DNA of 63,610 nt from Bacilli bacterium (lineage in GTDB: Bacteria; Bacillota_I; Bacilli_A; RFN20; CAG-826). The position numbers were made by a program, and so were the translations under genes. The notes under the pieces are model-generated. The model was given only the letters and a program-made list of their open reading frames with translations. It did no database searches and was not told the origin of the DNA. The stretch is from the NCBI GenBank assembly GCA_024409055.1, contig JAKSUL010000006.1, positions 1-63,610 on the forward strand, in the 5' to 3' direction. Below are positions 3,596 through 56,977 of this stretch, piece by piece; the first letter of the stretch is position 1, and every line of letters starts with the position of its first letter.

Positions 3596-5152
3596 ATGGC
3601 GAATCTTAAGCTGAAAGGGGTAAACAAAGTTTATCCTAATGGTGTTCAGGCCGTTTTCGATTTCAACGTCGATATTAAAGACAAGGAATTTATTGTTTTC
3701 GTCGGCCCTTCTGGATGCGGTAAATCTACGACTCTTAGAATGGTCGCCGGATTAGAAACCATCACTAGCGGGGAATTCTATATCGATGGCCAATTGATGA
3801 ACTCGGTTGAACCTAAAGATAGAAACATCGCCATGGTTTTCCAAAACTACGCCTTGTATCCTCATTTCACCGTTTACGAAAACCTAAGATTTGCTTTGAA
3901 ACTCAGGAAGGTTCCAAGGCCGATTTATACGAATCTTGAAGATCCCGAAATCGTCGCACTTACGAAAGAGAATCAAGAATTGTTTGCGACCGCCAATAAA
4001 TACAACAGGCAGTTCAAGAAGAAACAGTACGACGACAATCTTCTAATCGAAAGAAGAGAGGTCTACAAAAAGATCTTTGAAAACGAGGAAAAGCTCCAGG
4101 GCCTTTACGTTCAAGCCGTCGGCATTGACGAATATTCAATAAACAAAGCCACCAAGCTTATCGCGAAGTTAAAGAAGGACATCGCGCATAACGAAAAGAT
4201 TATTTCTCGCTATGTTGAGGATTATCCGGAAGAAACCAAGAGATTTGTTGAATCGAACGAGAACATCGCGAAACAAATCAAAAACGTCGAAGAAAAACTC
4301 GAATATTTGAAGACTCACGAAGTTCCGCTTAATCAGGTTCGCCACCTCACCAAATATGAGATGGACCTCGAAATCAACAAAGCGGCGGACTCCATCGATC
4401 TTGAAAGATACCTTTACCGCAAACCGGCCGCTCTTTCTGGTGGCCAGAGGCAGCGTGTTGCTTTAGGGCGCGCCATCGTTAGGAAACCAGCCGTTTTCTT
4501 GATGGACGAGCCTCTTTCTAACCTTGACGCTAAGTTAAGAGTCCAAACCAGGTCTGAGATCATCAAGATTCACGAAAGAGTTGGTGCCACGACCATTTAT
4601 GTCACCCACGACCAGACCGAAGCCATGACTATGGCGGATCGCATTGTCGTTATGAAAGACGGTTATATTCAGCAGGTCGGCGCTCCAAAAGAGCTCTTCA
4701 AAGATCCGGCCAATAAATTCGTCGCATCCTTCATTGGAAGTCCGGCTATGAACTTTATCTCCGGAACATATTCGAACGGGGTCTTCAAAGGCGAAATGAA
4801 AGAAGGGCTAGTCGAGGCCGTCGGTAACGAATCGTTTGAGTACGAAGTTCCCTCCGCCTATAAAGCGATGCTCACCCCCTACGAAGGAAAGAAAGTCATT
4901 TTGGGCGTGAGACCAGAAGATATCGAAATTAAAAAGGCTACCGGCAAGAAGAGCGGTGGAACCCTCGTTAATTGCGATTATGTCGAACTTCTTGGATATG
5001 ACTTAATGGTTTATGCCTACATCCTCGGAAATAAGGTAGTCGTTAAATCGGAAGAAAATACTGGCATTGCCATGGGAGATGATGGCTACATCACCTTCAA
5101 AGAAGACGCTGTCTATTTCTTCGATGGCGAAACCGAGCAGAGAATCCGTTAA
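3596..5152 (+). CDS. MsmX/UgpC-type sugar ABC transporter ATPase with large internal insertion
   Basis: A 518-aa ATPase that would energise MalFG-type permeases. Walker A is GPSGCGKST (37-45), the Q-loop Gln is Q83, the signature LSGGQRQR begins at L280, and Walker B FLMDEPLSNLD follows, with an H-loop in VTHDQTEAMT and a C-terminal OB/TOBE region. Ordinary MalK/MsmX proteins are about 370 aa. Here about 145 extra residues, charged and coiled-coil-like, separate the Q-loop from the signature. The ribosome site GAGGAG lies about 9 bases before the ATG. It heads the operon with the two permeases and the binding protein. A paralogue with a still longer insertion is at 57922-59550. Confidence 0.9.
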   Translation: MANLKLKGVNKVYPNGVQAVFDFNVDIKDKEFIVFVGPSGCGKSTTLRMVAGLETITSGEFYIDGQLMNSVEPKDRNIAMVFQNYALYPHFTVYENLRFALKLRKVPRPIYTNLEDPEIVALTKENQELFATANKYNRQFKKKQYDDNLLIERREVYKKIFENEEKLQGLYVQAVGIDEYSINKATKLIAKLKKDIAHNEKIISRYVEDYPEETKRFVESNENIAKQIKNVEEKLEYLKTHEVPLNQVRHLTKYEMDLEINKAADSIDLERYLYRKPAALSGGQRQRVALGRAIVRKPAVFLMDEPLSNLDAKLRVQTRSEIIKIHERVGATTIYVTHDQTEAMTMADRIVVMKDGYIQQVGAPKELFKDPANKFVASFIGSPAMNFISGTYSNGVFKGEMKEGLVEAVGNESFEYEVPSAYKAMLTPYEGKKVILGVRPEDIEIKKATGKKSGGTLVNCDYVELLGYDLMVYAYILGNKVVVKSEENTGIAMGDDGYITFKEDAVYFFDGETEQRIR

Positions 5153-5157
5153 AGATT

Positions 5158-6168
5158 ATGGAAAAAGATATAGCGAAGAAAAAGAAACCTCTTTGGCGGA
5201 GAATAAGGAACTTCTTCTACGAGAAAGACCGTAAAGTCTTCGGAAGCAGGCACCTTGCCGCCGGCCCAGTTCTTAGCAAAAGAAGGACTTCACTTTTTAT
5301 CGTGGCCCTCCTTTTCATTCCTATTGCTCACTGGTTGGTCTTCTGGTTATACATCAACATCAATTCAATTTTCTTGGCTTTCCAGGATTTCAGAACCGGG
5401 GAGGCTACGTTTGTAAACTTCCAGTTATTCTGGGAAAAACTTACTAGCCCGGTTGGGAACGAAATCGGCATCGCACTTAGAAACACTCTTATTTATTTCG
5501 GCACAACGGTCCTTGTCACAATGCCGTTATCATTCGTCATCGCTTACTTCCTATATAAGAAGATTCTTGGACACAGGATTTTTAGGATCATTTTCTACTT
5601 ACCTGCCATTATCTCTGGCGTTGCTCTTGTCGCAGCCTTTAAGGAAATGGTGGCCCCGTATGGTTTTATTTCCAAAATATTGGAATTCTTCGGCATGGAG
5701 ATTCCTGAAGGCGGTCTTCTTTATGACAACACTACCGCGACAGGAACGATCGTCGTGTATTGCATATTGACCGGATTCACCACCAATGTCTTGCTTTTCT
5801 CCGGCGCAATGGCCCGCGTTCCTCAGGAAGTTTTGGAATCAGCTAGGTTAGAAGGATGCGGATCCTTTAGGGAATTAGTGGAAATCATCTTCCCGCTTAT
5901 TTGGCCGACTTTTGCCACTCAGTTAATTTTCACGATGACCGGTTTATTCACAGCGTCTGGCCCGATTATGCTTTTCGACAAGATGAACAATTACGAGACC
6001 ATCACCATCTCGTATTGGATTTACCGTGAAATCTACGGAACCGGATTGGGCGGAACCGGAAACTACAACCTCGTTAGCGCCACCGGTTTGGTTTTCACTC
6101 TCATCGGATTCCCGATCATTATGCTTACCAGGTTCTTAACCGATAAGGTTGAGCCGGTCGAATACTAG
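5158..6168 (+). CDS. Sugar ABC transporter permease, MalF/UgpA type
   Basis: A 336-aa integral membrane protein with a basic cytoplasmic N-terminus of about 45 residues and about six membrane spans. The EAA loop that contacts the ATPase is recognisable (ESARLEGCGSFRELVEIIFP). It starts 5 bases after the ATPase stop, so translation is probably coupled, and it pairs with the MalG-type permease that follows. Substrate is probably an oligosaccharide, inferred from the surrounding glycosidases. Confidence 0.9.
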   Translation: MEKDIAKKKKPLWRRIRNFFYEKDRKVFGSRHLAAGPVLSKRRTSLFIVALLFIPIAHWLVFWLYININSIFLAFQDFRTGEATFVNFQLFWEKLTSPVGNEIGIALRNTLIYFGTTVLVTMPLSFVIAYFLYKKILGHRIFRIIFYLPAIISGVALVAAFKEMVAPYGFISKILEFFGMEIPEGGLLYDNTTATGTIVVYCILTGFTTNVLLFSGAMARVPQEVLESARLEGCGSFRELVEIIFPLIWPTFATQLIFTMTGLFTASGPIMLFDKMNNYETITISYWIYREIYGTGLGGTGNYNLVSATGLVFTLIGFPIIMLTRFLTDKVEPVEY

Positions 6169-6179
6169 GAGGTCATAAC

Positions 6180-7094
6180 ATGAAAAGAATTCCTAGTGCA
6201 TTAAGAATCAAGACCGATAAGGTCAAGAAATCCTTTGGCGAAAAAGTTATTTTCTCCATCGTCTTCGTTTTGTTTGCCATATACGCTGCCGCGATTCTTT
6301 ATCCTTTGGTGTATCTCGTTTTCGTCTCCATGTTTATGGATGCGGAAAACTATATCTTCATGATTACGGGCATTGCCGATGTATCGCTAGCTCCTCACTT
6401 TGAGAACTATATAAACGCTCTTAACATCTCTGTTCTAGATTCGGTTGGTAACGAAGTATTCATGCCACAGATGTTCTTCAACTCTATATGGTATTGCTTC
6501 TTCTCTATTGCCGGCGGCGTTCTTATGTCCTGCTTTACGGGATACGTGGTCGCAAAATACAAATTTAGAGGCAGGGGGCTTATCTATGCCGTCGCCATTT
6601 TCTGCATGACCATTCCGATCGTCGGTACCGGCGGCGCTGCCTTCAAGTTAATCTTTGATCTTGGCCTATACAACACGCCGATTTATATCATCGTTGCTTC
6701 TTTGGGCGGCTTTGGATTCAACTTCCTAATCATGTATGCCTTCTTCAAGAATGTCTCTTGGAGCTATGTCGAGGCTGTCTTGATCGATGGAGGCGGACAC
6801 TTCACGGCCTTTTTCAAAGTCATGCTTCCGCAGGCCAAACCTTCCTTAATCACATTAGCCATTTTGGCCTTCATTGGATGCTGGAACGATTATTCGACCC
6901 CACTTCTATACTTGCCGGACTATCCGACGGTAGCAAGCGGTGTCTATCAAATTCAAACTGCCGCCGAAAGAAGCGGCGAAACCCCATTGGTATTCGCGGG
7001 ATTGGCCTTGTCCATTATCCCGGTAATCATTCTCTTCGCCATTTGCTCGGAAAGAATCATGAAGAACCTTTCCATCGGCGGATTGAAGGGATAA
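6180..7094 (+). CDS. Sugar ABC transporter permease, MalG/UgpE type
   Basis: A 304-aa membrane protein with about six spans. The EAA loop reads EAVLIDGGGHFTAFFKVMLP, and the C-terminal ending in a short Ser-Ile-Gly-Gly-Leu-Lys-Gly tail is typical of MalG-type subunits. A strong ribosome site (TAGGAGGT) precedes the ATG. It is the second half of the importer channel, between the MalF-type permease and the binding lipoprotein. Confidence 0.9.
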   Translation: MKRIPSALRIKTDKVKKSFGEKVIFSIVFVLFAIYAAAILYPLVYLVFVSMFMDAENYIFMITGIADVSLAPHFENYINALNISVLDSVGNEVFMPQMFFNSIWYCFFSIAGGVLMSCFTGYVVAKYKFRGRGLIYAVAIFCMTIPIVGTGGAAFKLIFDLGLYNTPIYIIVASLGGFGFNFLIMYAFFKNVSWSYVEAVLIDGGGHFTAFFKVMLPQAKPSLITLAILAFIGCWNDYSTPLLYLPDYPTVASGVYQIQTAAERSGETPLVFAGLALSIIPVIILFAICSERIMKNLSIGGLKG

Positions 7095-7133: not shown

Positions 7134-8732
7134 ATGAAAAACAATCGCTTATTAATCGCTATGACGACTTCCATGCTCTGTGCTACGCTTCTTAGCGCCT
7201 GTGGAGGCAACAAGGTCCGTGACGACGCTCAGTCACTTCAGATTTTCTGCGTCGATGCCGGATATAGAACCCAGTGGGTTTCTGACATCAAAGACCTTTT
7301 CGTCCAAGAGGATTGGGTCAAACAGAAATACCCAAACCTCAACGTCAGGATCGACACCAGCAAAGATCAGACCTACGGAAGAACTCGTATGGACGCAGGA
7401 AGAAGCTCCAACACAATCGACCTTTTCTTCGATATGGGCTTAACCAACTACAACGGAAGCGACGATCTTCTTGATTTGACCGAGACCGTTTATAACTCAT
7501 CGGTTCCAGGCGAAGATACTTTGTTTAAAAACAAAATCGATGCTTCTTATCTTGAAGCCTTCACTTTTGATGGACAAAGCGATCCCGCCAAAAAAGGCCA
7601 CCAATTCTTTGCCCCGTGGGCTGGTGGTATGACCGGCATTCTTTATAACGCCGACATATTCTCTTCCCTCAACTACACCGTTCCGAACACGACTGACGAG
7701 CTCGTCGCCCTTTGCGCCGATTATCAAGGAAGAGGAACGGAAACTTCCCCGAAATACTGTTTCATCCAAGGAAACGACGAAACTTACTTCAATTACCTCT
7801 TCGATATTTTCTGGACCCAATACCAAGCTAGAGAAGGATACCTTGATTTCGTCAACGGAATCGCCGATAACGTCGTCTCCAAAGACATCTTTAAGCAGCA
7901 GGGCAGGATGGAAGCTCTTCTTGTTTATGAATCTTTAGTCAAAAACGAGAAGCACTTCGTCAACCCGAACTCAATCAACCAAGGATTCGCCGTCGCTCAG
8001 GCCATGTTCTTAAAAGGTGAGGCTTTGTTCAACGTCAACGGCGACTGGTTTGTCTCCGAAACCAAAGACATCAAAGGAAAGATCACAAACCCGGCTTCCA
8101 TCAAGATGATGAAGACCCCGATCATTTCCGCTATTAAGAACGTTGTGCCGGATTCTTCCATTGGAGACGATGCCGAGCTTTCGGCTTTGGTTAAGGCCAT
8201 CGATTCTCACGACACTTCCCTTTCTGGAGCCGGATACGAAGTCACCCAAGCCGACTACGATTACGTAAAAGCCGCTAGGGCCATCACTTACTCTATCGGA
8301 GCCGGTCACCACGCCGCCATTCCAAGCTATGCCACAGCTAAGGGTTTGGCCGCTGACTTCATCAGGTATTTAGCCACTGATAAGGCCATCGAAGCTTACA
8401 TCAAAGCCACCGATGGTGCTTCCATGCCTTTCGCTTATGACCTCGAAACCAAGAACCCGGCCTTATTCGCCAAAATCGATCCGATCCACCAGAGCAGGGT
8501 CCAATATTTTGCCGATACGTTCATCGATCCTTATACTCTTCCGAACAAATATATGTTCCCTCTCATCAAATACGGCGGAGTCGATACTTTCAAATTAGCT
8601 AATGGCTATGACTTCTTCGTCCAGATGGGCAAAAAGAACGGAGCCAAGACTCCTCAGCAATATTGGGATGAAACCATTTCGTATTGGACTGACGATAAAT
8701 GGCAGGACGCTTGCGAAAGAGCGGGTATCTAA
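7134..8732 (+). CDS. Extracellular sugar-binding lipoprotein of the ABC importer
   Basis: A 532-aa protein with a lipoprotein signal peptide (lipobox LSAC, lipidated C23) and an ABC solute-binding family 1 fold, including GILYNADIF, an F-V-N-G-D-W type central segment (ALFNVNGDWFVSE) and YATAKGLAADFIRYL. It is about 100 aa longer than typical family members. It sits at the outer face of the membrane and delivers ligand to the permeases at 5158 and 6180. AGGAGG lies just upstream of the ATG. Confidence 0.88.
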   Translation: MKNNRLLIAMTTSMLCATLLSACGGNKVRDDAQSLQIFCVDAGYRTQWVSDIKDLFVQEDWVKQKYPNLNVRIDTSKDQTYGRTRMDAGRSSNTIDLFFDMGLTNYNGSDDLLDLTETVYNSSVPGEDTLFKNKIDASYLEAFTFDGQSDPAKKGHQFFAPWAGGMTGILYNADIFSSLNYTVPNTTDELVALCADYQGRGTETSPKYCFIQGNDETYFNYLFDIFWTQYQAREGYLDFVNGIADNVVSKDIFKQQGRMEALLVYESLVKNEKHFVNPNSINQGFAVAQAMFLKGEALFNVNGDWFVSETKDIKGKITNPASIKMMKTPIISAIKNVVPDSSIGDDAELSALVKAIDSHDTSLSGAGYEVTQADYDYVKAARAITYSIGAGHHAAIPSYATAKGLAADFIRYLATDKAIEAYIKATDGASMPFAYDLETKNPALFAKIDPIHQSRVQYFADTFIDPYTLPNKYMFPLIKYGGVDTFKLANGYDFFVQMGKKNGAKTPQQYWDETISYWTDDKWQDACERAGI

Positions 8733-8734
8733 TC

Positions 8735-11230
8735 ATGGCCAGCAAGAAAGCGTTATTAAAATTTGGCGCATTCACGGTCACTCTTTTTGCCGCTACTTCT
8801 TGTGGCGCTGCCTCTTCCTCCGAGGTAACTCCTTCTGTTAAAAAAACCGAGGATGCTACTTCCAATAAAGAGATTTGGGGAACTTACGGATCCGAAAAGG
8901 TCGTACAAGATAGAGCCCGCGATTACTACGCTTCCAAAGTTCAAGACGCCAAGATCGATATTTTGACGTGCAAAGGCGAAAGCGAACTTGATCAAATCGT
9001 CATTTCCCCTGTTTCCAAAGTCAATTATTTCAACGCGAGGGTCACTAATCTTATTTCTTCCGATGGTAACGTCATTGGTAAGAACAACATCGAGCTCTTT
9101 GCCGCTAAATACTTAAAAATAGCCAATATCTATGATATTGCCACGAATGAAAGCAAAGGAAACTTCCCGGACGCTTTGATTCCGGTTGAGGCTATCGTTA
9201 GAGAAAAAACCAACTACATCAACGCCGGTTATAACCAAAGCTTTTATGTTAAGGTCACGACTCCTTTGGGACAAAAGCCCGGGGTATATAAAGGCAACCT
9301 TTTCATCCAACTTGATGAAACCGAATATAAGATTGCCGTTACGGTTGACGTCAAAGACTACAAGGTCAACGCCATCACCCACTCCAAGAGCCTTTTCCTC
9401 AACGATTGGCAATTCGATAGCGGCGAAAACGATTCTTCCCAGGACAAATTAGATTCTTATAACGACGCTCTTTTGGACTATAGGCTTTCTCCAGACAAAC
9501 TCATCAGGCAGGAAGACATGTATGGCCACTTCAACAGCGATTTCATTTTCCGTTACACCGAAAAAGCCTATGAGTACATGCAAAACGATAATTGCACCAA
9601 CGTATCCATTCCTTATGAGCCGATTTCAAAAGTTGTTGGAGGAGAGTGGCTCCAGACCATAAACGTCGAGAAATTTAAGGAATTCCTTACCAGCTACTAC
9701 GTTAAATCGATTGCCACGAACTACAACATGTTCGAAAAATCTTCCTTCTACTGCGGCCTCATCGACGAGCCGGATGATAGGCAGATACTGGAACAGACCA
9801 AGCTCGTAGTCGGTGACTTTGAACGTGCTATTTCCGAGGCGGCTGCCGATTTATCCGTTCATGGTTATATAAGCAATCCTCTTCACGAAACTTTGATCGA
9901 AGAAATCAAGAATCTTAAAAACATCGTCACCTGTGCTTATGCTGACGAATATGCTCCCTATATTGAGTGTTGGTGCCCGAAAGCTAACTTCTATAACACA
10001 GAAGAGCAGCGCGCCAATTACGCCAGTCAAAAAGAGAAGTGGTGGTATACGTGTGTTTATCCACGCGCCCCATATCCAACCTATCACATCGAAGACGGTT
10101 TAACTTCCGCCAGAGCTTTATCTTGGATGCAGGCCGAATACGATGTTGTCGGAAACTTATTCTGGGCGACCAACGTATACGCTCGCTATAACGGGACCCA
10201 GTACATCCCGATCGAAGACTATTACCAAGAAGGTTATAGATTTAGCGGTGTCAATGGCGATGGATTCTTGTTCTATCCAGGTGAACCGCTTGGTTACAAT
10301 AAGCCGTTTGGTTCCACGAGGCTTGAATCCATTAAAGACGGTCTCGAGGAATATGAGATTTTCTATAACCTCAAGGAAGTAGCCAAAAATCTCGAGTTAA
10401 AAGATGATGGCATGTTCTCTTTCCTAAACCGCAACTTATATCGTGGAACCAAGGTCATCGGCGGAACTGCCGAAATGGAGGAAAGCCGCAAAGACCTCAT
10501 TGACTTAGCTCTAGCCAATCAAAATGGTTCTTCTTTCCTCATCACCGATTGCGTCTATAACGAGAATCAGGGCCAAGTCGAAATGGAGTTTTACGCCAAT
10601 AACGGAACGAAGATCGATCTTAATGGTGCTCAAATCTCTGAAGGCGCCTCTTATAAGAATGGTCATATTTTCACTGCTATTCAAAAACTCGATAAAGATG
10701 AAAACGTCGCCAATATCTCCGTCTCGTATGGCGGAAAGACCAATACGATAAAACATAACCTTGGCGGCAAGATTTACGCTATATCCGCTAAAGATCTCGT
10801 GAATGGTTTCGCCAAATACGACGCTGAAGTTGCGGCCTCTCTTGTTGAATCCGGCGATGAAGAGCTGGTCAAGATCGACGTCTCCGCCATCAACAACAAG
10901 AGGCAAAGAATTCGTTATACTCCTGACTTTATCAAGAACGTTAACGAAGATACCAAAACGCTCATCATGACATTCAAGAACGAGTCAAGCAAAGACATTC
11001 CTTTGGCTTTGGCCGCTAAGTTTACGAATAAACGTGGTGAGCAATATCTCAGCCAAGGAAATGTTTTGACCGCTAACGGCTATACGACCGTCACGGTTGA
11101 CTTATCAACATTCTCCATGGCCACATCGGGAAACATCGAATATTTGACTTTCACCTTTGGCGAAGATACGGCAGAAGGAAGCAAAGAAGCGGTAACGGCG
11201 TTCCTTAGAAACGTTGTTCTAGCTTATTGA
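8735..11230 (+). CDS. GH123-like (DUF4091) surface lipoprotein glycosidase
   Basis: 831 aa from the ATG at 8735. An in-frame ATG at 8699 is rejected because it would bury the lipoprotein signal inside the protein and overlap the previous gene. The lipobox is AATSC (C23). A beta-sandwich containing KPGVYKGNLF is followed by a TIM-barrel with IDEPDD (D344-E345, the likely catalytic pair), then WWYTCVYPRAPYPTYHI, GNLFWATNVYARYNG, GDGFLFYPG and RLESIKDGLEEYE, which are DUF4091/GH123 hallmarks. Known GH123 enzymes are N-acetyl-beta-galactosaminidases acting by substrate-assisted catalysis. It lies directly behind the binding protein (2-base gap). The extra C-terminal beta domain (about residues 600-831) may bind glycan. 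Confidence 0.8.
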   Translation: MASKKALLKFGAFTVTLFAATSCGAASSSEVTPSVKKTEDATSNKEIWGTYGSEKVVQDRARDYYASKVQDAKIDILTCKGESELDQIVISPVSKVNYFNARVTNLISSDGNVIGKNNIELFAAKYLKIANIYDIATNESKGNFPDALIPVEAIVREKTNYINAGYNQSFYVKVTTPLGQKPGVYKGNLFIQLDETEYKIAVTVDVKDYKVNAITHSKSLFLNDWQFDSGENDSSQDKLDSYNDALLDYRLSPDKLIRQEDMYGHFNSDFIFRYTEKAYEYMQNDNCTNVSIPYEPISKVVGGEWLQTINVEKFKEFLTSYYVKSIATNYNMFEKSSFYCGLIDEPDDRQILEQTKLVVGDFERAISEAAADLSVHGYISNPLHETLIEEIKNLKNIVTCAYADEYAPYIECWCPKANFYNTEEQRANYASQKEKWWYTCVYPRAPYPTYHIEDGLTSARALSWMQAEYDVVGNLFWATNVYARYNGTQYIPIEDYYQEGYRFSGVNGDGFLFYPGEPLGYNKPFGSTRLESIKDGLEEYEIFYNLKEVAKNLELKDDGMFSFLNRNLYRGTKVIGGTAEMEESRKDLIDLALANQNGSSFLITDCVYNENQGQVEMEFYANNGTKIDLNGAQISEGASYKNGHIFTAIQKLDKDENVANISVSYGGKTNTIKHNLGGKIYAISAKDLVNGFAKYDAEVAASLVESGDEELVKIDVSAINNKRQRIRYTPDFIKNVNEDTKTLIMTFKNESSKDIPLALAAKFTNKRGEQYLSQGNVLTANGYTTVTVDLSTFSMATSGNIEYLTFTFGEDTAEGSKEAVTAFLRNVVLAY

Positions 11231-11244
11231 GGAGGAATCTAGTT

Positions 11245-12495
11245 ATGAAATTCAGCAAGTTCTTAATGATGGGATTCCTTCCCTTGTTCGCTTTGACCGG
11301 ATGCAACAACACTCCGTCCGAAAACAAAGACGAGACGATGTTCCTTAGTTTTGAGGAGGGCTATAACGACCTTAATAGCGCGGTCCTTATCAATTATTTT
11401 GGAAAGGCTTCTTTGAATACCGTTCCTGAATTCGTCAAAGAGGGAAAATGCAGCGCTTTGCTTCAACCAACCGGTGTTTATGGCGTTAATAGAAAGCCTT
11501 TGATTTATTTCCCCCTTTCCTCAAACCTATATAACTTCAACAAAGGAGACATCACCAAATACGATTCCGTTTCCTTTGCTATCTATAACGCCAGCGACAG
11601 GAAAATAGAAGGGGCTACCGGATTTGTTTCCGATGTCGTTTCCGTTTATAAGGTTGGAACGACCAAGATAGGTGAGATGACTTTGTTGCCGCGTCAATGG
11701 AATGAGTTCACTTTCACCATCGATCACGCTTATTGCAACCTCTTCTTCAACATCCAAGAAGCTCCGGGCTTGTATTTCGAGTTCGAGAACATGAATGTTA
11801 AGGACCCCTCTTTCGCCCCATCTCTTTATTTGGACGCCGTTTCTTTCAAAAACGCCGCTACCCCTCATGTCATCCATGATGACTTCGTTCTTGAAGAAAA
11901 TGAGATCTGCGATTTTGAGAAGGATTTCCAGCAATATTTCCTCGCCTGCAACAATTACTTCGAAGACGCTTTGAAGTTCAAAATCACCGATGACGTTGAT
12001 GGAATTAAGGCCTCTCACGGCAAAAAATTCCTTTGCATCGATGTAAAGGCCGGGTCTGTTGCGTGGGCCGATTGGTCTTCCACTTTCCTTACCGAAAGAT
12101 ATATGTCGAGAACCAAGATTGCTTCTTTGGATCTCGAGGAAGAAGCTTCCCAGTATCGTTTCGAATACGATATAAGGTTCGTCGGAACTCCAAACTCCGA
12201 TAACAACCGCGTCGTCACGAGGTTCATGACTAGGGGTGAGACGAAATCGACCTTAGTCGTTCCTTGCATCGATGAGAGCAAGCCTTTGGACCAAGAAAAC
12301 ATTGTCGCCCCGGAAAATGAGTGGTGCACGATGGGCTTTACCTTCTGCAAGAACTACACGTTCGCCGGTCAAAACTACTGTTTGGACACCAACTTCACCG
12401 GAGTTAATACCGGCAAGATGGAATTCTCCATTGGTGACCTCGAATATGACTACAAGATTCTTATCGACAACATCAAATTGGTGAAAATAGCGTAA
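11245..12495 (+). CDS. Lipoprotein of unknown function, possibly glycan-binding
   Basis: 416 aa from the ATG at 11245, which has AGGAGG upstream; an in-frame TTG at 11227 is rejected because it overlaps the previous stop and carries no lipoprotein signal. The lipobox ends at C20 (ALTGC). The mature protein appears to be two beta-rich, jelly-roll-like halves (roughly 30-205 and 215-416). Each contains the pattern common in carbohydrate-binding modules in which a strand ends in a buried acidic/aromatic segment such as LYLDAVSF or LIDNIKLV. No catalytic motif is seen. Its position between a surface GH and a transport module suggests glycan capture. Function is unknown. Confidence 0.6.
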   Translation: MKFSKFLMMGFLPLFALTGCNNTPSENKDETMFLSFEEGYNDLNSAVLINYFGKASLNTVPEFVKEGKCSALLQPTGVYGVNRKPLIYFPLSSNLYNFNKGDITKYDSVSFAIYNASDRKIEGATGFVSDVVSVYKVGTTKIGEMTLLPRQWNEFTFTIDHAYCNLFFNIQEAPGLYFEFENMNVKDPSFAPSLYLDAVSFKNAATPHVIHDDFVLEENEICDFEKDFQQYFLACNNYFEDALKFKITDDVDGIKASHGKKFLCIDVKAGSVAWADWSSTFLTERYMSRTKIASLDLEEEASQYRFEYDIRFVGTPNSDNNRVVTRFMTRGETKSTLVVPCIDESKPLDQENIVAPENEWCTMGFTFCKNYTFAGQNYCLDTNFTGVNTGKMEFSIGDLEYDYKILIDNIKLVKIA

Positions 12496-12499
12496 CGGT

Positions 12500-13249
12500 A
12501 TGCCTACTATCGAGTGCAAGAATCTATCGTTTGCCTATTATGGCAACAAAGGAAAAGAAGTCGCGCGCGTCCTCAACGGCCTTAACGCGACCTTTGAAAA
12601 TGGGAAAACGACGATTCTCCTCGGCGAATCAGGTTCTGGAAAATCCAGCCTCTTGCATTTGATATCCGGCCTAAACGAAGACTATGAAGGGGATATCCTC
12701 TTCGATGGCGTGGACGCGCATGAACTATCGATCAGAAGAAGGAAACTGAGCTACATAACACAGAAGGTTCTTCTCCTTCCGCATATCACCATCTTCGACA
12801 ACATCGCCTCATCGCTTAAATACGATGACGACATCGATCCAAACGAGATTAAGGTCAGGGTTAGAAATATCGCCAAAGCCTTAAAGATTGAACATTGTTT
12901 ATCTCGTAAGCCAAAACATCTCTCCTATGGTCAGCAACATCGCGTCATGTTGGCCAAGGCTTTCGTCGGTAATCCGGAACTCATCTTACTTGATGAAGCC
13001 TTCACCGGACTTGATGAACCGACAAAAGACGAGCTTCTTAGACTCGTCAAAGAGTGGAAAAAAGAACTCGGCGCCACCCTCATCGTGGTCACTCACGATT
13101 ACAAAGAGGCTCTCTCACTAGGAGACGTCGCTTATGTGCTGGAGGATGGGAAAATCGAAGTCTCCATTCCAAAAGAAGGCATCCGTTCTTCGAATCATCC
13201 AAGCTTAGTTGCTTTAAGGGAAGCCTCCAAGGTGGAAGAAAAGTTATGA
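12500..13249 (+). CDS. Small MalK-like ABC ATPase without OB domain
   Basis: A 249-aa ATPase: Walker A GESGSGKSS, Q-loop ITQKV, HITIFDNI, Walker B LILLDEAFTGLD and H-loop VTHDYKEAL. The signature is LSYGQQHR instead of LSGGQ. The protein ends soon after the ATPase core and lacks the C-terminal regulatory OB domain of MalK/MsmX. Its stop overlaps the ATG of the next gene (13246), so it is translationally coupled to a DUF624-like membrane protein. The same gene pair recurs at 56216-57848. Its transport or signalling role is unknown; the nearest relatives by motif are sugar-importer ATPases. Confidence 0.85.
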   Translation: MPTIECKNLSFAYYGNKGKEVARVLNGLNATFENGKTTILLGESGSGKSSLLHLISGLNEDYEGDILFDGVDAHELSIRRRKLSYITQKVLLLPHITIFDNIASSLKYDDDIDPNEIKVRVRNIAKALKIEHCLSRKPKHLSYGQQHRVMLAKAFVGNPELILLDEAFTGLDEPTKDELLRLVKEWKKELGATLIVVTHDYKEALSLGDVAYVLEDGKIEVSIPKEGIRSSNHPSLVALREASKVEEKL

Positions 13250-14166
13250 GCGATAAACGTGTTAAACGCAAAATTGCCGAGACCGACTTCCTAGAGGAGA
13301 ACCTCCCCCAAACTAGAAGCGGGCAATTTAAAGACATCCTGAAAATCAATTTTAGGTTATTCCTTGAATTGGGGTTGATCCTTCTTGGTGTCTTCGCCCT
13401 TTTGCTGGCCAAGGTTTATTTCTCTTATTACTTCAATGCGGTGGCCGAGAATTCCTTCAAGCTCGGGCACATCAGCGAAGAAGAGAAAAACAGCATCGTC
13501 TTATGGACGTTCTTAATTAGCGAAGGAGCCAACGTTCTCTTGTATCCGCCCGTCTTCATCGTTTTGGCGGGGGTCCTAAGAATCGTTAGGCAACTCTGCT
13601 ATACCGAAGGAATTATCTTCTCCTACGACTTCAAACAAGGGGTCAAAGATAATTGGGCCAAATTCCTCTTTATCGGCTTGTTCTTCGCGTTGGGACAGTT
13701 CATCGTGGCGCTTGTATATGCGTTTATGGGTATCAGCTTCTTGTCCGCGATCCCTTACGCCTTATCACTGCTACTAGTTGCTCCGACCTTTATTGGGGCT
13801 ACTTACTTCTTCAGCACCTATGAAAACAAATTGGGCAGAGGGTTGTTAAATTCGATGCTCATTCACTTAAGGGCGTCATGGAGATCGCTTCTACTGACCG
13901 CCGTAATAGTGGCACCGGTCATCCTCATCGAACTCTTCCTTGGCATGATAATCGTCAAACTCGTCATCTACTCGGTTCTTATTGTTCTATGTTTGCCGAT
14001 AGTGATATTGGCCGGGTATGAGATGTATCTATACGTTTATGACACAAACGTGAACGTCTATCACTTCCCAGAGGCTATCAGGAGAGGCCTATACATCTCC
14101 GAAAAAGAAAAAGAATCCATCAACCAAAAATTAGAGGAAATCAAAGGAGGGAAAAATGAAAAATAA
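13246..14166 (+). CDS. DUF624/YesL-like polytopic membrane protein partnered with ABC ATPase
   Basis: 306 aa from the ATG at 13246, which overlaps the preceding stop (ATGA). A charged N-terminus carries LPQTRSGQFKDILKINF (about residues 20-36), followed by about six hydrophobic spans and a Lys/Glu-rich C-terminus. The YDFKQGVKDNWAKF segment and overall topology recall DUF624/YesL, proteins often found in sugar ABC operons with unknown function. The paralogue at 56955 shares LPQTR..QF..I.K and DFK.GVK. There is no EAA loop of a classic sugar permease. Given tight coupling to the ATPase it may be that ATPase's membrane partner (inference). Confidence 0.65.
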   Translation: MSDKRVKRKIAETDFLEENLPQTRSGQFKDILKINFRLFLELGLILLGVFALLLAKVYFSYYFNAVAENSFKLGHISEEEKNSIVLWTFLISEGANVLLYPPVFIVLAGVLRIVRQLCYTEGIIFSYDFKQGVKDNWAKFLFIGLFFALGQFIVALVYAFMGISFLSAIPYALSLLLVAPTFIGATYFFSTYENKLGRGLLNSMLIHLRASWRSLLLTAVIVAPVILIELFLGMIIVKLVIYSVLIVLCLPIVILAGYEMYLYVYDTNVNVYHFPEAIRRGLYISEKEKESINQKLEEIKGGKNEK

Positions 14167-18382: not shown

Positions 18383-18387
18383 TTTAT

Positions 18388-41734: not shown

Positions 41735-43420
41735 ATGAACATGAAAAAGGCATTGACCGTTGCTGGAGCGATGGTCTTCGTTACCGCCGGAGCCACAACT
41801 TTGGCCAGCTGCGGAAAATCCGACATCGATACCACCAAAACCCAGCTTTACGTTTTGAACTACCAAGGCGGTTATGGAAAGAAATGGCTCGAGAACGCCG
41901 CTAGACGTTATGAGGAAATGTATAAAGATCGTTCCTTCCAGCCAGGCAAAACTGGTCTTGAGATTATTGTTCAAGAAGAAAAGCAAAGGCCGAACAACGC
42001 TGTTTTGAAGAATAGCAATTACGAGTTGATTTGCTTCGAAGGCTTGGTCTATAAGGACCTCATGGCCGACAACATGTGCGCCGATATCACCAAATACGTC
42101 ACGAATCCTAATCCGTACGAAACGGAAAAGACCATCGAGAGCAAGATGTATGAAGAGCAGAAAGATTTCTTCAAAGATAACGGCAAGTACTACGTCCTCC
42201 CGAACTATGTCGGAACCTTTGGCGTCGTCTATAACAAAAAAGTCTTCGACCAAAACGGTTTATACTTTGTCGACGGATATGAATCCCTTGAAGGCGATGA
42301 AAGGTTTACCATCGTCCCTGAGGAAAGAAGTGCTGGTCCGGATGGAGCCTACAACACCGAAGATGACGGACTCCCGGTCACATACGAGGATTTCTATGAT
42401 CTCTGCTCCTATATCGATAGCAGAACTCTTGTTCCCCTTATTTGGATGGGCAAGAACTCCCAGAACTATTTAACCGATTTAACTTCCGCCATGATCGCCA
42501 ACTATGACGGATACGAAAATTACAAAGCCAACTATTTGATGGATGGCACTTTCGAGGCCGCCAAGATCGATGATGCTAACGGCACCGTTAAGTTCAACGC
42601 CGATGGATCCATCGAAACCGAAATGGTCACCGTTCACCCGGGTAAAGTCGGAAACGCCTATGATGGATATGAAATCCAGCGCAGCGCTTCTAAGTACTAC
42701 GCCTTCGACTTCATCAAGAACATCGTCCACAACAAAGGACAATGGGCTTATGACCGTTTGAATGATTCCTTGTTGCACACCGATGCCCAGAGCCTTTTTA
42801 TCAACTCTCAATTCGGAGTTCTTCCGTCTTTCAAGAAGCCGAACGCCCAAATCGCTATGCTTTTTGAAGGTAACTGGTGGGAATCCGAAGCCAGCGAAGT
42901 TTTCGAAGGCTTGTCTCAAGACGAGAAGAGCCAGCTCGACTATGGTTGGATGCCTCTTCCGAGAAACGTTCACTCCACCAACAACAAAAACACCAGCATC
43001 AGCTCTTTGACCTCTTACATGTTCGTTAAGAACGGACTTGAGGACTATCAGACTGAGTTGGCCGCCGACTTCATGCAGTATCTCAATACCGACGCTGCTT
43101 ATGAAGAATTCAGCGTCTTGACCTCTGCCGTTAAGTCCTTCAAATACGAGCTTAGTGCCGAAAGCAAAGCCAAGATGACCAAATGCGGTCAACACTTCTG
43201 GGATTACTTCCAAGAATCCGAAAAGATCTTCCCGCAAAGCCACAACGGTCAGTTCACCGATGCCCTTTCTTCGTTTGAGCTTTCCAGGCGTTACTTCACC
43301 AAAGAGACCATGACTTGGCCGTCTTTGAACTTCGCTACTGATCCAAACGAAACCGCCGGCACATACATGAATAAGATGTATCACTACTACAAGGACACCA
43401 TCTGGAGCAAATTGCAATAA
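41735..43420 (+). CDS. Extracellular sugar-binding lipoprotein, second ABC importer
   Basis: 561 aa with lipobox TLASC (C26 from the ATG at 41735; AGGAGG at 41721). Solute-binding family 1 features include YEEMYKD near the N-terminus, FGVVYNKKVFDQNG and AMLFEGNWW, with an acidic loop (GPDGAYNTEDDG) that resembles a calcium-type loop. It feeds the two permeases directly behind it; its stop overlaps the first permease start. It is long for the family, like the protein at 7134. Confidence 0.88.
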   Translation: MNMKKALTVAGAMVFVTAGATTLASCGKSDIDTTKTQLYVLNYQGGYGKKWLENAARRYEEMYKDRSFQPGKTGLEIIVQEEKQRPNNAVLKNSNYELICFEGLVYKDLMADNMCADITKYVTNPNPYETEKTIESKMYEEQKDFFKDNGKYYVLPNYVGTFGVVYNKKVFDQNGLYFVDGYESLEGDERFTIVPEERSAGPDGAYNTEDDGLPVTYEDFYDLCSYIDSRTLVPLIWMGKNSQNYLTDLTSAMIANYDGYENYKANYLMDGTFEAAKIDDANGTVKFNADGSIETEMVTVHPGKVGNAYDGYEIQRSASKYYAFDFIKNIVHNKGQWAYDRLNDSLLHTDAQSLFINSQFGVLPSFKKPNAQIAMLFEGNWWESEASEVFEGLSQDEKSQLDYGWMPLPRNVHSTNNKNTSISSLTSYMFVKNGLEDYQTELAADFMQYLNTDAAYEEFSVLTSAVKSFKYELSAESKAKMTKCGQHFWDYFQESEKIFPQSHNGQFTDALSSFELSRRYFTKETMTWPSLNFATDPNETAGTYMNKMYHYYKDTIWSKLQ

Positions 43421-44346
43421 TGCGAGTCAGAAGAAAAGTTAGCGACAGCAAAAAGAGTGATTTGGGTTTCCAACTCCTCCTTTTGGCGTGGCCGGTAATT
43501 CAATTTTGCATCTTCTACATTTACGTCAACATCAACACCGTCAGACTCGCCTTCAACTTTGGCGAGACTAGCGGTGGACCGTTCGTTTATTTGGAATATG
43601 TTTCCCAAAACCCTGAATTCTTAAAGGGCGCTGGATTATCGTTGCTTCTTTACTTGGTCTGCACGGCCATTTCCATTCCTTTGGCCCTTCTTTTCGCTTA
43701 TTACATCTACAAGAAGTTCAAAGGTGGAAAGCTGTTCAGATTCCTCTTGTTCTTACCGTCCATCATCTCCGCTACCGTTTTGATCATCATCTTCACCAAA
43801 TTTACGGCTTATGACCTTTTGGTGTTTCAGCATGATGTCTTGGGTGTGGAGGTCCCGGTATCGATAACATCGGGCGAATTTAAGTATGTCTGGGTTGTCG
43901 TCATTGGTTTCTACCTCTTCTTGAACTTTGGCACAACGACTCTCATCTATTCCAACAAGATGAGCGAAATCTCCACCGAAGTCGTCGAGGCCGCAAGGCT
44001 TGACGGCGTTAACCGCCTCCAGGAGTTCTGGCACATCGTTCTCCCTGGCGTTTGGCCGACTTTATCTACGTTCATCATCACTGGCATGGCAACCATATTC
44101 ACCAACCAGTATTTCTTGTTCACCTTCTACTCAAGCACCGCTGTTACCACATTAGGAAACGCCCCGCTTGGCTATATCATTTATAACTCCATTCAGGATG
44201 CCTTCCTTTCCCCGCAGTCGGTTGAAAGAGCCCCAGTTATGTATCACAACATGGCGGCTTTGGGTATTTTGATTACCGCCGTTACCATTCCTCTTGTTTT
44301 CGGAGGAAGGGCACTTCTTAAACGTTTCGGACCATCGGAGAAATAA
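43420..44346 (+). CDS. Sugar ABC transporter permease, MalF/UgpA type
   Basis: 308 aa with about six membrane spans and the EAA loop EAARLDGVNRLQEFWHIVLP. The ATG shares one base with the stop of the binding-protein gene (TAATG), a sign of translational coupling. It pairs with the permease at 44349. Confidence 0.9.
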   Translation: MRVRRKVSDSKKSDLGFQLLLLAWPVIQFCIFYIYVNINTVRLAFNFGETSGGPFVYLEYVSQNPEFLKGAGLSLLLYLVCTAISIPLALLFAYYIYKKFKGGKLFRFLLFLPSIISATVLIIIFTKFTAYDLLVFQHDVLGVEVPVSITSGEFKYVWVVVIGFYLFLNFGTTTLIYSNKMSEISTEVVEAARLDGVNRLQEFWHIVLPGVWPTLSTFIITGMATIFTNQYFLFTFYSSTAVTTLGNAPLGYIIYNSIQDAFLSPQSVERAPVMYHNMAALGILITAVTIPLVFGGRALLKRFGPSEK

Positions 44347-44348
44347 TT

Positions 44349-45272
44349 ATGTTGAAGAGTAAGAAAATATCCCTTTCCCACAACAAGTTATCGGCTTCCT
44401 CCATTTTCATTTTGGTGATCCTTCTTGTTTATACTGCTTTCTTGGCTTTCCTTATCTTTTGGGCCTTCATGGTTGCCTTCCAAACCACCGACAAACAGAT
44501 TTTCAATAAGTGTGGTGGAGCCTATTACAAGATGCCGCCTCATTTTGAACTGCATTTTGCCGAAGTTATCGAAAAGCTTCAGTTAAATGGTTTGCCAGGC
44601 GAAGCCAAACAGAACTTCTTTGATATTTTGAGGAACAGTTTACTTTATTCCGTTTTGTCTGCTTTCTTGAAGACTTTGATCCCTTGCCTCACCGCTTATG
44701 CGTGCGCTAGGTTCAACTTCAAAACCGGCAAGGTCGTTTATACCGCCGTTTTGATGGCTATGATCGTTCCGCTTGTCGGAAGCCAATCCTCTGAGCTTGA
44801 GCTTGTTTCGAAGTTCGTGGTCGGCGATTATTCGCTCATCATCGATAACGTCATCGGAACCTCGTTATTAAAAGCCAACATGCTCGGCTTATATTTCTTC
44901 GTTTTCTATTCGACATTCGAAAGCATGCCGAAAGATTATTTCGAAGCCGCTCGTATTGACGGAGCCGGCAACTGGAGCGTCCTCTTCAAGATCGCTTTTC
45001 CTCTCGTCAAAAATGTCTTCTTGACTGTCTTTATCATCGAATTCGTCCAGTTCTGGAATGACTATCAGACCCCAATGGTCTATTTGAACCATAGACCGAC
45101 CCTCGGCTTTGCTTTGTGGCAATTAAGCTTTGGCACCGCTGGAGCCGCTTTGTCCAACCCAGTCTTAGCTATGACCACCGTCATCTTATGCGCCTTACCG
45201 GTTGTTATCCTCTTTATCATCTTCAAAGATAAATTCATGGGCAATTTAACCATGGGCGGTATCAAAGGATAG
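44349..45272 (+). CDS. Sugar ABC transporter permease, MalG/UgpE type
   Basis: 307 aa with about six membrane spans, the EAA loop EAARIDGAGNWSVLFKIAFP and a MalG-type C-terminus (FMGNLTMGGIKG). No ATPase gene lies in front of this importer. The likely energiser is the MsmX-type protein at 57922 or 3596, as MsmX proteins commonly serve several importers. Confidence 0.9.
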   Translation: MLKSKKISLSHNKLSASSIFILVILLVYTAFLAFLIFWAFMVAFQTTDKQIFNKCGGAYYKMPPHFELHFAEVIEKLQLNGLPGEAKQNFFDILRNSLLYSVLSAFLKTLIPCLTAYACARFNFKTGKVVYTAVLMAMIVPLVGSQSSELELVSKFVVGDYSLIIDNVIGTSLLKANMLGLYFFVFYSTFESMPKDYFEAARIDGAGNWSVLFKIAFPLVKNVFLTVFIIEFVQFWNDYQTPMVYLNHRPTLGFALWQLSFGTAGAALSNPVLAMTTVILCALPVVILFIIFKDKFMGNLTMGGIKG

Positions 45273-53966: not shown

Positions 53967-56216
53967 ATGATAAAAGTTGAAAACGGTTATTTCAAAATCG
54001 ACACCCCAAATACGACCTATTTATTTAAGGTTAATCCTTTGGGAATACTTGAACACATCTATTACGGAAAAAAGATCCCATCTTCAAAAGATTATTCCTT
54101 TATTGAAGAACAAGCCAAATATGGTGGTGGAACATTAACCGGCGACAACGAATACGCCATATACGAAGATTGCGCTTCTTTGGAGGCCTCTTCTAGTAAA
54201 AGAGGTGACAGCAGAGAAACGTTCCTCAATCTTTCTTTCGATTCGAATGACCGCGAATTTGTTCTTAAATACAAAGCCTATCGCATTTCTAATGGCGTTA
54301 ACCTTGATACGCTTCCCTCTAGTCACGACAAAGCCCAAACCTTGTCCGTTATTTTAGAAGATGAGAATCGCGGCATTGAAGTTACGTTAAATTATTCTGT
54401 TTTCGAGGATACCGACGTCATCGTTAGAAATTCATCAATTAAAAACGTCGGCAAATCACTAATAAAAATCGAAAGGATCATGTCTTCTTCTTTCGATATG
54501 ATCGACGGCGATTTCACTTTGGTCACCTTAAATGGTGCGTGGGCTAAGGAAAGACAAATCAACGAAGCTCCATTAGCGATGGGCATAACAAAAGTGTCTT
54601 CTAACTACGGCTTTAGCAGTGCCCAGACAAACCCATTCACGATTCTTAAAAAGAAAGAGACAACCTTTGTTGGCGGGGAAGCCTATGGCTTCAATCTGCT
54701 TTATTCCGGCAACCACATGACGACTTATGAAAGAACCATGTACCATAAGGTCAGAGTCATGGCCGGAATTAATGATTACTCATTCTCTTGGACTCTTAAT
54801 CCAAACGCGGTCTTCGAAGCCCCAGAGGCTACTCTTTGCTACTCTTATCAAGGCATAAATAAGTTGAGCCACGAGTATCATCAATTTGTTAGAAACCACA
54901 TCATCAGAAGTGAATTCAAGGACAAAGAAAAGCCGATCCTTATCAATAACTGGGAAGGCACCTATTTCAATTTCACCGAAGAGTCTTTGCTTGGAATTGC
55001 TAAAAAAGCCAAAGAAGTCGGCATTGAGATGCTTGTCTTGGATGATGGATGGTTTGGGAAAAGAAACAGCGATTCAACGTCACTAGGAGACTGGTATCCA
55101 AACCTCGAAAAACTTCCAGAAGGAATCAAGGGCTTAAGCGAGAAGGTTCATTCTCTTGGATTGAAATTCGGATTATGGTTTGAGCCGGAAATGATCTCCC
55201 CAGATAGCGATTTGTATCGTAGCCATCCGGAATGGGCGATTAAACACAAGTCATACGTGCCCCTTCTTTCAAGAAACCAATTGGTTCTAGATTTAACGAA
55301 TGAAGAGGTTGTCAAATACATCGGAGACGTTGTGTCTTCTTTGATTAAGGATGCGAAACTCGACTACGTTAAGTGGGACTGCAATAGAAATATAGGCGAC
55401 TACTATAACGAGAACCTCGATAACCAGGAAGAATTCCTCCATAGATATATGCTTGGCTTCTACAAGCTGGTTAAACACGTGACCGAAGAGTGCCCGAATG
55501 TTTTGTTTGAGAGCTGCTCCGCTGGTGGCAATAGGGCCGACTTAGGCTTGCTTTGCTACATGCCCCAATTCTGGTGCAGCGATAACAGCGACCAAGTTTC
55601 AAGAATGATGATTCAAGAGGGGACACTACTTTGCTACCCCCAGTGCTGCATCGGAGCCCATGTGTCTTCATCCTTGTCTCACCAAACCTTGCGCACCGCA
55701 ACATACGACAACAAGTTCAATGTCGCCTGCATCGGAGCGTTTGGATACGAACTCGATTTGACCAAACTCAACGAAAGAGAACTTCAAGCGATCAAAGATC
55801 AAATCACATGGTTTAAGAAGCACAGGAAGCTTCTTCAGCTTGGCGATTTCTATCAGATCAAATCCTTCTATACCGATAACACCCAGGAATTTGTAATAGT
55901 TTCCTCCGATAAGAGCGAGGCTATGTACTTTGTAGGCAATAAGGTTTTCATGCCATATGCTTGCCCGACTATCATCAAGCCGATTGAACTAAATAACGAA
56001 TACGTATATGAAGTTTCTTCAAGGGCCCAATATCAAAATGCCCTTCTTGGAAAAGGCGAAATGTGCGAAAGTAGCGAATGGACCATTTTGGGTGAGACAT
56101 TCATGAACGCCGGTATAAGACTTCCTTATGAATGGCTCAGCGGAAACGGACCGGAAAAGCGAATTATGGAAGACTTCGGCTCACGCCTTTATTACATTGA
56201 AAAGAAAGAAGCCTAA
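53967..56216 (+). CDS. GH36 alpha-galactosidase / alpha-N-acetylgalactosaminidase
   Basis: A 749-aa cytoplasmic enzyme with the complete GH36 architecture: an N-terminal beta-supersandwich, LVLDDGWFGKR, DWYPNLEKLP, GLWFEPEMISPDSDLY, YVKWDCNR (nucleophile D471), LFESCSAGGNR, and WCSDNSD (likely acid/base D539), then GAHVSSS. The family covers alpha-galactosidases and alpha-N-acetylgalactosaminidases. It has no signal peptide. Its stop overlaps the ATG of the next ABC ATPase (TAATG). Confidence 0.9.
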   Translation: MIKVENGYFKIDTPNTTYLFKVNPLGILEHIYYGKKIPSSKDYSFIEEQAKYGGGTLTGDNEYAIYEDCASLEASSSKRGDSRETFLNLSFDSNDREFVLKYKAYRISNGVNLDTLPSSHDKAQTLSVILEDENRGIEVTLNYSVFEDTDVIVRNSSIKNVGKSLIKIERIMSSSFDMIDGDFTLVTLNGAWAKERQINEAPLAMGITKVSSNYGFSSAQTNPFTILKKKETTFVGGEAYGFNLLYSGNHMTTYERTMYHKVRVMAGINDYSFSWTLNPNAVFEAPEATLCYSYQGINKLSHEYHQFVRNHIIRSEFKDKEKPILINNWEGTYFNFTEESLLGIAKKAKEVGIEMLVLDDGWFGKRNSDSTSLGDWYPNLEKLPEGIKGLSEKVHSLGLKFGLWFEPEMISPDSDLYRSHPEWAIKHKSYVPLLSRNQLVLDLTNEEVVKYIGDVVSSLIKDAKLDYVKWDCNRNIGDYYNENLDNQEEFLHRYMLGFYKLVKHVTEECPNVLFESCSAGGNRADLGLLCYMPQFWCSDNSDQVSRMMIQEGTLLCYPQCCIGAHVSSSLSHQTLRTATYDNKFNVACIGAFGYELDLTKLNERELQAIKDQITWFKKHRKLLQLGDFYQIKSFYTDNTQEFVIVSSDKSEAMYFVGNKVFMPYACPTIIKPIELNNEYVYEVSSRAQYQNALLGKGEMCESSEWTILGETFMNAGIRLPYEWLSGNGPEKRIMEDFGSRLYYIEKKEA

Positions 56217-56977
56217 TGCCGAACGTTACTTTCAAAAACGTTACAATCTTCTATGGAAAAAGAAGAAATAGACAAGACGTTGTAGAAGATTTAAACGTCT
56301 CTTTTAAAAGCGGCAAAACAAATGTCCTCTTGGGCGCTTCTGGAAGTGGCAAGACCACTATCCTTAAATCGCTTGTTGAGATGGTTGATTACGATGGAGA
56401 CATATTTTTCGATGATGTCGACATCAAAAACATCGTCATAAACAAAAGAAACATCAGCTATTCTTCGCAAAACATCAATCTCTACCCTCATATGACGATA
56501 TTTGAAAATATCGCCTTTCCTTTGAAGATAAGAAAATATCCTAGAGACGAGATATTAAAAAGAACTAGGGCTATGGCCGAAAAGCTTGGGATCGCTGTTT
56601 GCCTAAATCAACGCGGCAGATATCTTTCCATCGGACAGCAGCAAAGGGCAATGATAGCGAGGGAGTTGGTTTACGATCCAAAGATTTTATTGATGGATGA
56701 GCCTTTTTCTTCGCTCGACCCCACCCTAAGAAAAGAAATGTGCAAATTAGTGAAGTCACTTCAAAAAGAACTAGGCGTCACCGTTATTTATGTAACTCAC
56801 TCTTATGACGAAGCGATAAATTTGGCTGACGAGCTTTTCATTCTCGAAGAGGGGAAAGTGGTCGCTAGTGGAACTCCGAAAAAACTTATCGCCGACAACA
56901 ATGAATATCTCGAGATGATGTATAAGAGCGAATATATCTCGGCAGGTGAAATCCATGAGAAAGAGAAAGACGATTAG
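56216..56977 (+). CDS. Small MalK-like ABC ATPase without OB domain, second copy
   Basis: 253 aa, parallel to the gene at 12500: Walker A GASGSGKTT, YPHMTIFENIAFPLKIRKYPRDEI (close to MalK-type sequences), Walker B ILLMDEPFSSLD and VTHSYDEAI. The signature is LSIGQQQR instead of LSGGQ. There is no C-terminal OB domain. The start shares a base with the GH36 stop, and the 3' end overlaps the membrane-protein gene by 23 bases. Both copies lie at or near the end of an importer operon, so the module probably does something beyond powering the main permeases. Confidence 0.85.
   Translation: MPNVTFKNVTIFYGKRRNRQDVVEDLNVSFKSGKTNVLLGASGSGKTTILKSLVEMVDYDGDIFFDDVDIKNIVINKRNISYSSQNINLYPHMTIFENIAFPLKIRKYPRDEILKRTRAMAEKLGIAVCLNQRGRYLSIGQQQRAMIARELVYDPKILLMDEPFSSLDPTLRKEMCKLVKSLQKELGVTVIYVTHSYDEAINLADELFILEEGKVVASGTPKKLIADNNEYLEMMYKSEYISAGEIHEKEKDD

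Follow-up and report, generated by a model that had tools for sequence, protein, structure and literature searches.

Bacteria of the gut and rumen related to the Bacilli bacterium studied here carry, in gene clusters for sugar uptake, a dedicated pairing of a small MalK-type ABC ATPase with a membrane protein of the DUF624/YesL family. The pairing is undescribed in the open-access literature that we searched, and the two proteins probably constitute a membrane machine, driven by ATP, of a kind not described before. A larger module, often of four genes, has this pair as its short form. We consider it likely that the two proteins make up one ATP-driven membrane complex, with the ATPase seated on the DUF624 protein, and that this complex is an accessory to glycan operons and does not power their importer.

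DUF624/YesL proteins are found in the sugar operons of many Firmicutes, where their function is unassigned; MalK-type ATPases are well known. A functional study of YesL was not found in the open-access literature, nor was any paper on an ATPase/DUF624 unit, which agrees with a preliminary description of this DNA that knew of no such system. The term DUF624 occurs in just three papers of the open-access literature searched, and the one that was consulted names it solely as a YesU neighbour.

The pair and its operons in the window

The window, the whole stretch of 63,610 nucleotides that was analysed, includes two importer operons and two copies of the pair, referred to below as modules 1 and 2:

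3596..5152, + strand: MsmX/UgpC-type ATPase of operon 1 (NCBIfam UgpC, 445.7 bits, cut-off 432; OB_MalK)
5158..7094, + strand: MalF- and MalG-type permeases of operon 1, EAA-type loop
7134..8732, + strand: substrate-binding lipoprotein of operon 1 (SBP_bac_1, 6.6e-12)
8699..12495, + strand: GH123-like enzyme and a lipoprotein weakly like glycan-binding SGBP, between the importer and module 1
12500..13249, + strand: small MalK-type ABC ATPase of module 1 (249 aa, LSYGQ; Pfam ABC_tran, 3.3e-33; ATPase clade I)
13246..14166, + strand: DUF624-like membrane protein of module 1 (306 aa, six transmembrane helices; AF2 pLDDT 89)
41735..45272, + strand: substrate-binding-protein-like lipoprotein and MalF/MalG-type permeases of operon 2
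53967..56216, + strand: GH36 alpha-galactosidase (Melibiase, 6.9e-140), immediately upstream of module 2
56216..56977, + strand: small MalK-type ABC ATPase of module 2 (253 aa, LSIGQ; included in the ATPase tree)
56955..57848, + strand: DUF624-like membrane protein of module 2 (297 aa; 29% identity to the module 1 protein)
57922..59550, + strand: MsmX/UgpC-type ATPase of operon 2 (NCBIfam UgpC, 447.8 bits; OB_MalK; large insertion in the helical domain)

The preliminary description had reported that the pair at 12500/13246 recurs at 56216/56955, that its genes overlap, that both membrane proteins share a start and an internal motif, and that the small ATPases lack the OB domain. All of this is borne out: the overlaps measure 4 nt in module 1 and 23 nt in module 2, the LPQTRxxQFxxIxK start and DFKxGVK are present in both membrane proteins, and OB_MalK is found in 3596-5152 and 57922-59550 and not in 12500-13249 or 56216-56977. 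The module 1 ATPase, without an OB/TOBE domain, has all its catalytic residues intact. Both window operons also carry the separate MsmX-type ATPase that had been supposed to serve the importer, and the enzyme at 3596..5152 is the likely motor of the operon 1 permeases.

Each of the two MsmX/UgpC-type ATPases (3596-5152 and 57922-59550) has an insertion, charged and coiled-coil-like and well over 100 residues long, between the Q-loop region and the signature, that is in the permease-contacting helical subdomain, and the ABC_tran match is stretched across 316 residues in the second of them. This insertion is often common to relatives that carry the small-ATPase module. The second glycan operon begins with a gene for an ADP-ribosylglycohydrolase-family protein (37850-39340; 1.3e-38), and near each importer operon there is one Gfo/Idh oxidoreductase that has a C-terminal GH109 domain (18376-19614, and 60258-61487 on the minus strand). 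Together with the GH123 and GH36 enzymes, these GH109-type proteins hint at glycans containing GalNAc or galactose as substrates.

Copies in the host genome and the s1 and s2 genes

Whole-genome searches identified eight DUF624-like proteins in the host, and every one of them shares its operon with a small OB-less MalK-type ATPase. Under random gene placement the chance of such linkage, roughly estimated by hand, is far below one in a million. Seven of the eight DUF624-linked small ATPases are the best genome matches to the window ATPase, and six of the eight copies are located in or beside operons with a substrate-binding protein and two permeases. The signatures of the eight ATPases comprise LSYGQ, LSIGQ, LSGGQ, ISIGQ, LSLGQ, VSVGQ and LSKGE, the plain LSGGQ occurring in one of them.

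At three of the eight copies (contigs C10, C45 and C15) two further genes, s1 and s2, are inserted between the ATPase and DUF624. The idea of a two-gene module put forward in the preliminary description was thus right about the recurrent ATPase/DUF624 pair but missed these additional members. The s1 product is about 160 aa long and has two transmembrane helices and a soluble tail, and that of s2, of about 200 aa, is membrane-anchored by one transmembrane helix and has a presumably extracellular domain. Neither had a Pfam match over cut-off. The candidate identity of s2 as a truncated substrate-binding protein was dropped, being unsupported by hhalign (0.8%), Pfam or PDB sequences. Examples of s1-s2 genes beside DUF624-like proteins can be seen at L029:13543-14611, L031:8078-9135 and L033:8565-9639.

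Distribution, architectures and linkage

The DUF624-like family occurs in 78 of 279 genomes of the order, representing 27 of 56 genera; at class level it occurs in 16 of 346 genomes, and at phylum level in 18 of 392, all 18 within the same class. Scored copies number up to eight per genome, and at least ten copies are present in G238. Most of the named relatives are metagenome-assembled genomes (MAGs) labelled Erysipelotrichaceae, Bacillales or Bacilli, many of them ruminant-derived; one Acholeplasmataceae MAG is also among them.

The neighbourhoods of 148 DUF624 loci were annotated with profiles built in this analysis. A MalK-type ATPase is present within 2 kb on the same strand at 121 of the 148, and the pair proposed from the window is conserved well beyond it; s2 is present at 95, and s1 and/or s2 add to the pair. 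A MalFG-type permease on the same strand is found at only 28 loci (in stretches usually of 6 kb to either side). Where ATPase and DUF624 occur together the order is ATPase-DUF, ATPase-s1-s2-DUF, or DUF-ATPase with or without s1-s2; further architectures have s1-s2-DUF followed by a long MsmX-type ATPase of 620-830 aa, or the long ATPase followed by s1-s2-DUF, and some loci have s1-s2-DUF without an adjacent ATPase. The long ATPases beside s1-s2-DUF624 in single-copy relatives (L155, L158, L171 and others; 620-830 aa) continue past the ATPase domain for about 390 residues or more, far beyond the usual MalK C-terminal domain. In these relatives the MsmX-type ATPase probably takes the role of the small one. 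In one genome (G230:C3), the small ATPase and DUF624 are naturally fused in one open frame of 511 residues.

Linkage was also assessed from the side of the ATPase, by running the small-ATPase profile against 14 multi-copy genomes and counting matches of at least 245 bits by hand from the table. All 38 or so matches adjoin DUF624, two of them recognised only after their neighbourhoods had been fetched, and with the eight of the host genome the total amounts to 46 of 46 small ATPases beside DUF624, the fusion being a further case. A short, lower-scoring ATPase (220 bits; G228:C1) is part of a different permease system.

Common history of the two proteins

Phylogenies of both proteins were computed as quick trees with one support measure. 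In the tree of 103 ATPases, 56 of the 59 small enzymes form a single branch (clade I, SH-aLRT 100) apart from the MsmX-type ATPases, and the remaining three belong to a second small group that likewise adjoins DUF624. The tree of 143 DUF624-like proteins places the partners of all 56 clade-I ATPases on one side of a single branch (SH-aLRT 98), inside which there is no protein with another kind of ATPase. As judged from these sequences, the pair arose once and has been inherited as a unit.

A mirror-tree comparison of the 59 pairs gave a correlation, to which block inheritance contributes, of r 0.663, compared to 0.294+/-0.073 when partners were swapped within genomes (0 of 2000 swaps as high). 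The 16 loci with both permeases are too few and too diverged to tell an ATPase-DUF624 from an ATPase-permease relationship: r is 0.146 for ATPase-DUF624 (20% of shuffles as high, not significant), 0.39 for ATPase-MalG, also not significant, and 0.871 for MalF-MalG.

Catalytic residues and coupling cleft of the small ATPase

The Walker A lysine, the signature serine and glycine, the Walker B aspartate, the catalytic glutamate and the switch histidine are invariant in all 59 small ATPases, and the Q-loop glutamine is present in 57; since the catalytic residues are invariant, the small ATPase should hydrolyse ATP. The third signature residue is a glycine in 23 of the 59; most of the remaining enzymes have I, L, V, M, Y, A or K there. 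The preliminary description had singled out LS[Y/I]GQQ in place of LSGGQ; such variants are indeed present in the window, but as a defining mark the motif was rejected, because its third position is merely relaxed among the 59 and LSGGQ itself occurs in 20 of them.

F82 of MsmX (F81 of MalK; F81-Y87) lies in the cleft for the EAA coupling helix of MalF/G (PMC7658222). A phenylalanine at this position (MsmX numbering) is found in none of the 56 clade-I ATPases, where it is replaced by S, D, T, P, N or Q, versus 76 of the 80 MsmX-type ATPases of the DUF624 loci. Residue 100 has changed from G to P in 54 of the 56, and the other part of the MalK cleft (LYPHMT) is kept. As all 56 share one ancestor, the loss of F82 counts as one retained event and not as 56, and it is what would be expected if the coupling partner had changed. 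A second ATPase lineage beside DUF624 (L154, L163, L172, L178, L191, L034, L157 and L167) shows the order DUF624-ATPase and has F82 kept.

The DUF624-like membrane protein

The assignment of the membrane protein as DUF624/YesL-like, made earlier from the letters of the window, is upheld by profile comparison: hhalign aligns the family to canonical DUF624 with 98.4% probability (E 1e-14, 171 columns), and the new profile recovers 27 of 30 canonical DUF624 loci. One member (L269) passes the Pfam PF04854 cut-off (26.9 bits), and the window members are below cut-off or absent, that of module 1 scoring 15.5 bits. Homology to DUF624/YesL (PF04854) extends across about 170 residues and both types are located in carbohydrate loci; however, the module proteins, at about 280-306 aa versus about 200-240 aa for canonical ones, are usually 50-100 residues longer, and they possess a conserved N-terminal LPxTR helix and an FDxxIN...KGL tail. 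Their surroundings differ too: of 30 canonical loci, 16 have MalFG-type permeases within 1.5 kb and none has an ABC ATPase there, while most members of the module family do have an ATPase neighbour.

The AF2 model of the window protein, a confident one (pLDDT 89, pTM 0.86), has its nearest solved folds in CysZ and the CTL/Pns1 proteins (probability 0.85-0.99), with weak E-values of 0.07-0.35, the best matches reaching a probability of 0.99 at E 0.07-0.26; the TM score of the CysZ match is 0.53 by target. Among the 50 fold matches listed there is a single ABC transmembrane protein, at chance level. CysZ and CTL proteins are not known to be driven by an ATPase. That DUF624 might be a divergent MalF/G permease was rejected on profile comparison (hhalign 0.2-1%), a MalG match of E 0.057 being taken as chance.

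The charge distribution places the N and C termini both inside. Of the four cytosolic segments (mean relative entropy 2.2, 1.9, 1.3 and 2.4 bits), three are the most conserved parts of the protein and the one at 1.3 is intermediate, the transmembrane helices having 0.8-1.1 and the outer loops 0.5-1.0, and no conserved polar pathway is evident in the transmembrane helices. Partner-specific positions of DUF624 (P180, P251, G43 and R112) split two subfamilies and are indistinguishable from phylogeny.

A proposed complex and the competing explanations

Because its partners belong to a single clade, 46 of 46 copies adjoin DUF624, a fusion exists, F82 is lost and the cytosolic loops are conserved, the small ATPase most likely docks on the DUF624 protein and not on the permeases. 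In the complex that we propose, a dimer of the small MalK-derived ATPase would sit on the cytosolic loops of the DUF624 protein, this mode of docking and stoichiometry being our inference, with four putative docking surfaces: the LPxTR helix at the N terminus, the loops that join TM2 to TM3 (EG...DFxxGIKxN) and TM4 to TM5, and the FDxxIN...KGL tail. ATP binding and hydrolysis would reshape the six-helix bundle. The complex would act as an accessory of glycan-utilisation operons whose MalFG-type importer has or shares its own MsmX-type ATPase; GH123-like and GH36 enzymes and a lipoprotein resembling glycan-binding ones are encoded beside the pairs of the window. The full form would have an extracellular domain, contributed by s2, and an intracellular one, contributed by s1. 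As to its output, we lean slightly towards movement of a small solute or glycan product, control of uptake being nearly as plausible. An AF2 model of an ATPase-linker-DUF624 chain, obtained by in-frame read-through at L264 with two TAG codons read as Q, folds both domains well, with a pTM of 0.58 for this artificially linked construct; all Foldseek matches listed for it are ABC ATPases.

The small ATPase could instead be the nucleotide-binding domain of the operon's MalFG importer, or half of a heterodimer with the MsmX-type enzyme, with DUF624 an unrelated neighbour. The siting of six of the eight host copies at importer operons would suit this, as would the retained LYPHMT part of the coupling cleft and the ATPase-MalG correlation, weak and short of significance as it is. 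We nevertheless hold it to be improbable: every clade-I ATPase checked adjoins DUF624, many loci show no permease within 6 kb, F82 has gone from 56 of 56, the natural fusion was made with DUF624 and not with a permease, and each window operon has an MsmX-type ATPase besides. It is likewise improbable, in our estimation, that the two products do not interact physically and that block exchange and duplication of glycan operons alone have kept their genes together. Linkage spans very different operons as well as importer-free loci, the gene order changes (ATPase-DUF or DUF-ATPase, with or without s1-s2), the genes have fused, and no clade-I ATPase was found without DUF624; yet operon inheritance can generate both linkage and mirror-tree signals, and AF2 gave no confident interface in the linked chain. 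What was described at the outset as a separate ABC-type unit, distinct from the importer ATPase, is supported by its recurrence in the genome and among the 148 loci and by the matched clades.

A different question is whether anything crosses the DUF624 bundle at all, since the complex might be a sensor or flux controller that uses ATP to report or limit sugar uptake. Conservation is found mainly on the cytosolic face, with variable transmembrane helices, s2 has an extracellular domain, and in single-copy relatives s1-s2-DUF624 stands beside a long MsmX-type ATPase (45 loci with s1-s2); furthermore, a non-transport role is suggested for the fold-similar CTL family (PMC13160678). On the other side, no kinase, regulator or other output domain was recognised in s1, s2 or DUF624, few flanking genes being annotated, and the best fold match, CysZ, is described as a sulfate permease (PMC5967866). 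On balance we regard the sensor or controller as rather unlikely.

Comparison with known transport systems

Like the multitask ATPases MsmX and MsmK (PMC7658222), the small enzymes are of the MalK branch, have intact canonical motifs and reside in Firmicute sugar operons; unlike them, the clade-I members lack OB/TOBE and F82, carry P at 100 and are dedicated one to one instead of being shared. A MalK-type ATPase in a carbohydrate operon is a feature shared with the MalFGK2-type (type I) importer, but the membrane partner in the module is non-homologous to MalF/MalG and is without an EAA loop. The A-T unit of ECF transporters, whose modules are dedicated or shared (PMC3246461), may offer an analogy, as there too an ABC ATPase energises a membrane protein that is not of the MalFG type; EcfT, however, is not among the fold matches listed for the DUF624 model.

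More tentatively, the module could represent a new ABC architecture, with DUF624 of CysZ/CTL-like fold as the transmembrane part, a dedicated MalK-derived ATPase and often s1 and the extracellular s2; as part of that same tentative reading, the fold would be unlike any known ABC transmembrane domain.

Implications for the DUF624 family

In one lineage, a DUF624 protein gained its own ATPase once and has kept it through wide divergence and one fusion. The existence of a lineage with its own ATPase leads to a concrete hypothesis for the family, namely that DUF624 proteins work with MalK/MsmX-type ATPases, and it is directly testable, YesL and MsmX of Bacillus subtilis being one suitable pair. 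By a more tentative extension, the shared MsmX ATPase may also serve, so far unnoticed, the YesL/DUF624 proteins of other Firmicutes. If the fold assignment is true, the ABC superfamily would gain a transmembrane architecture through the module.
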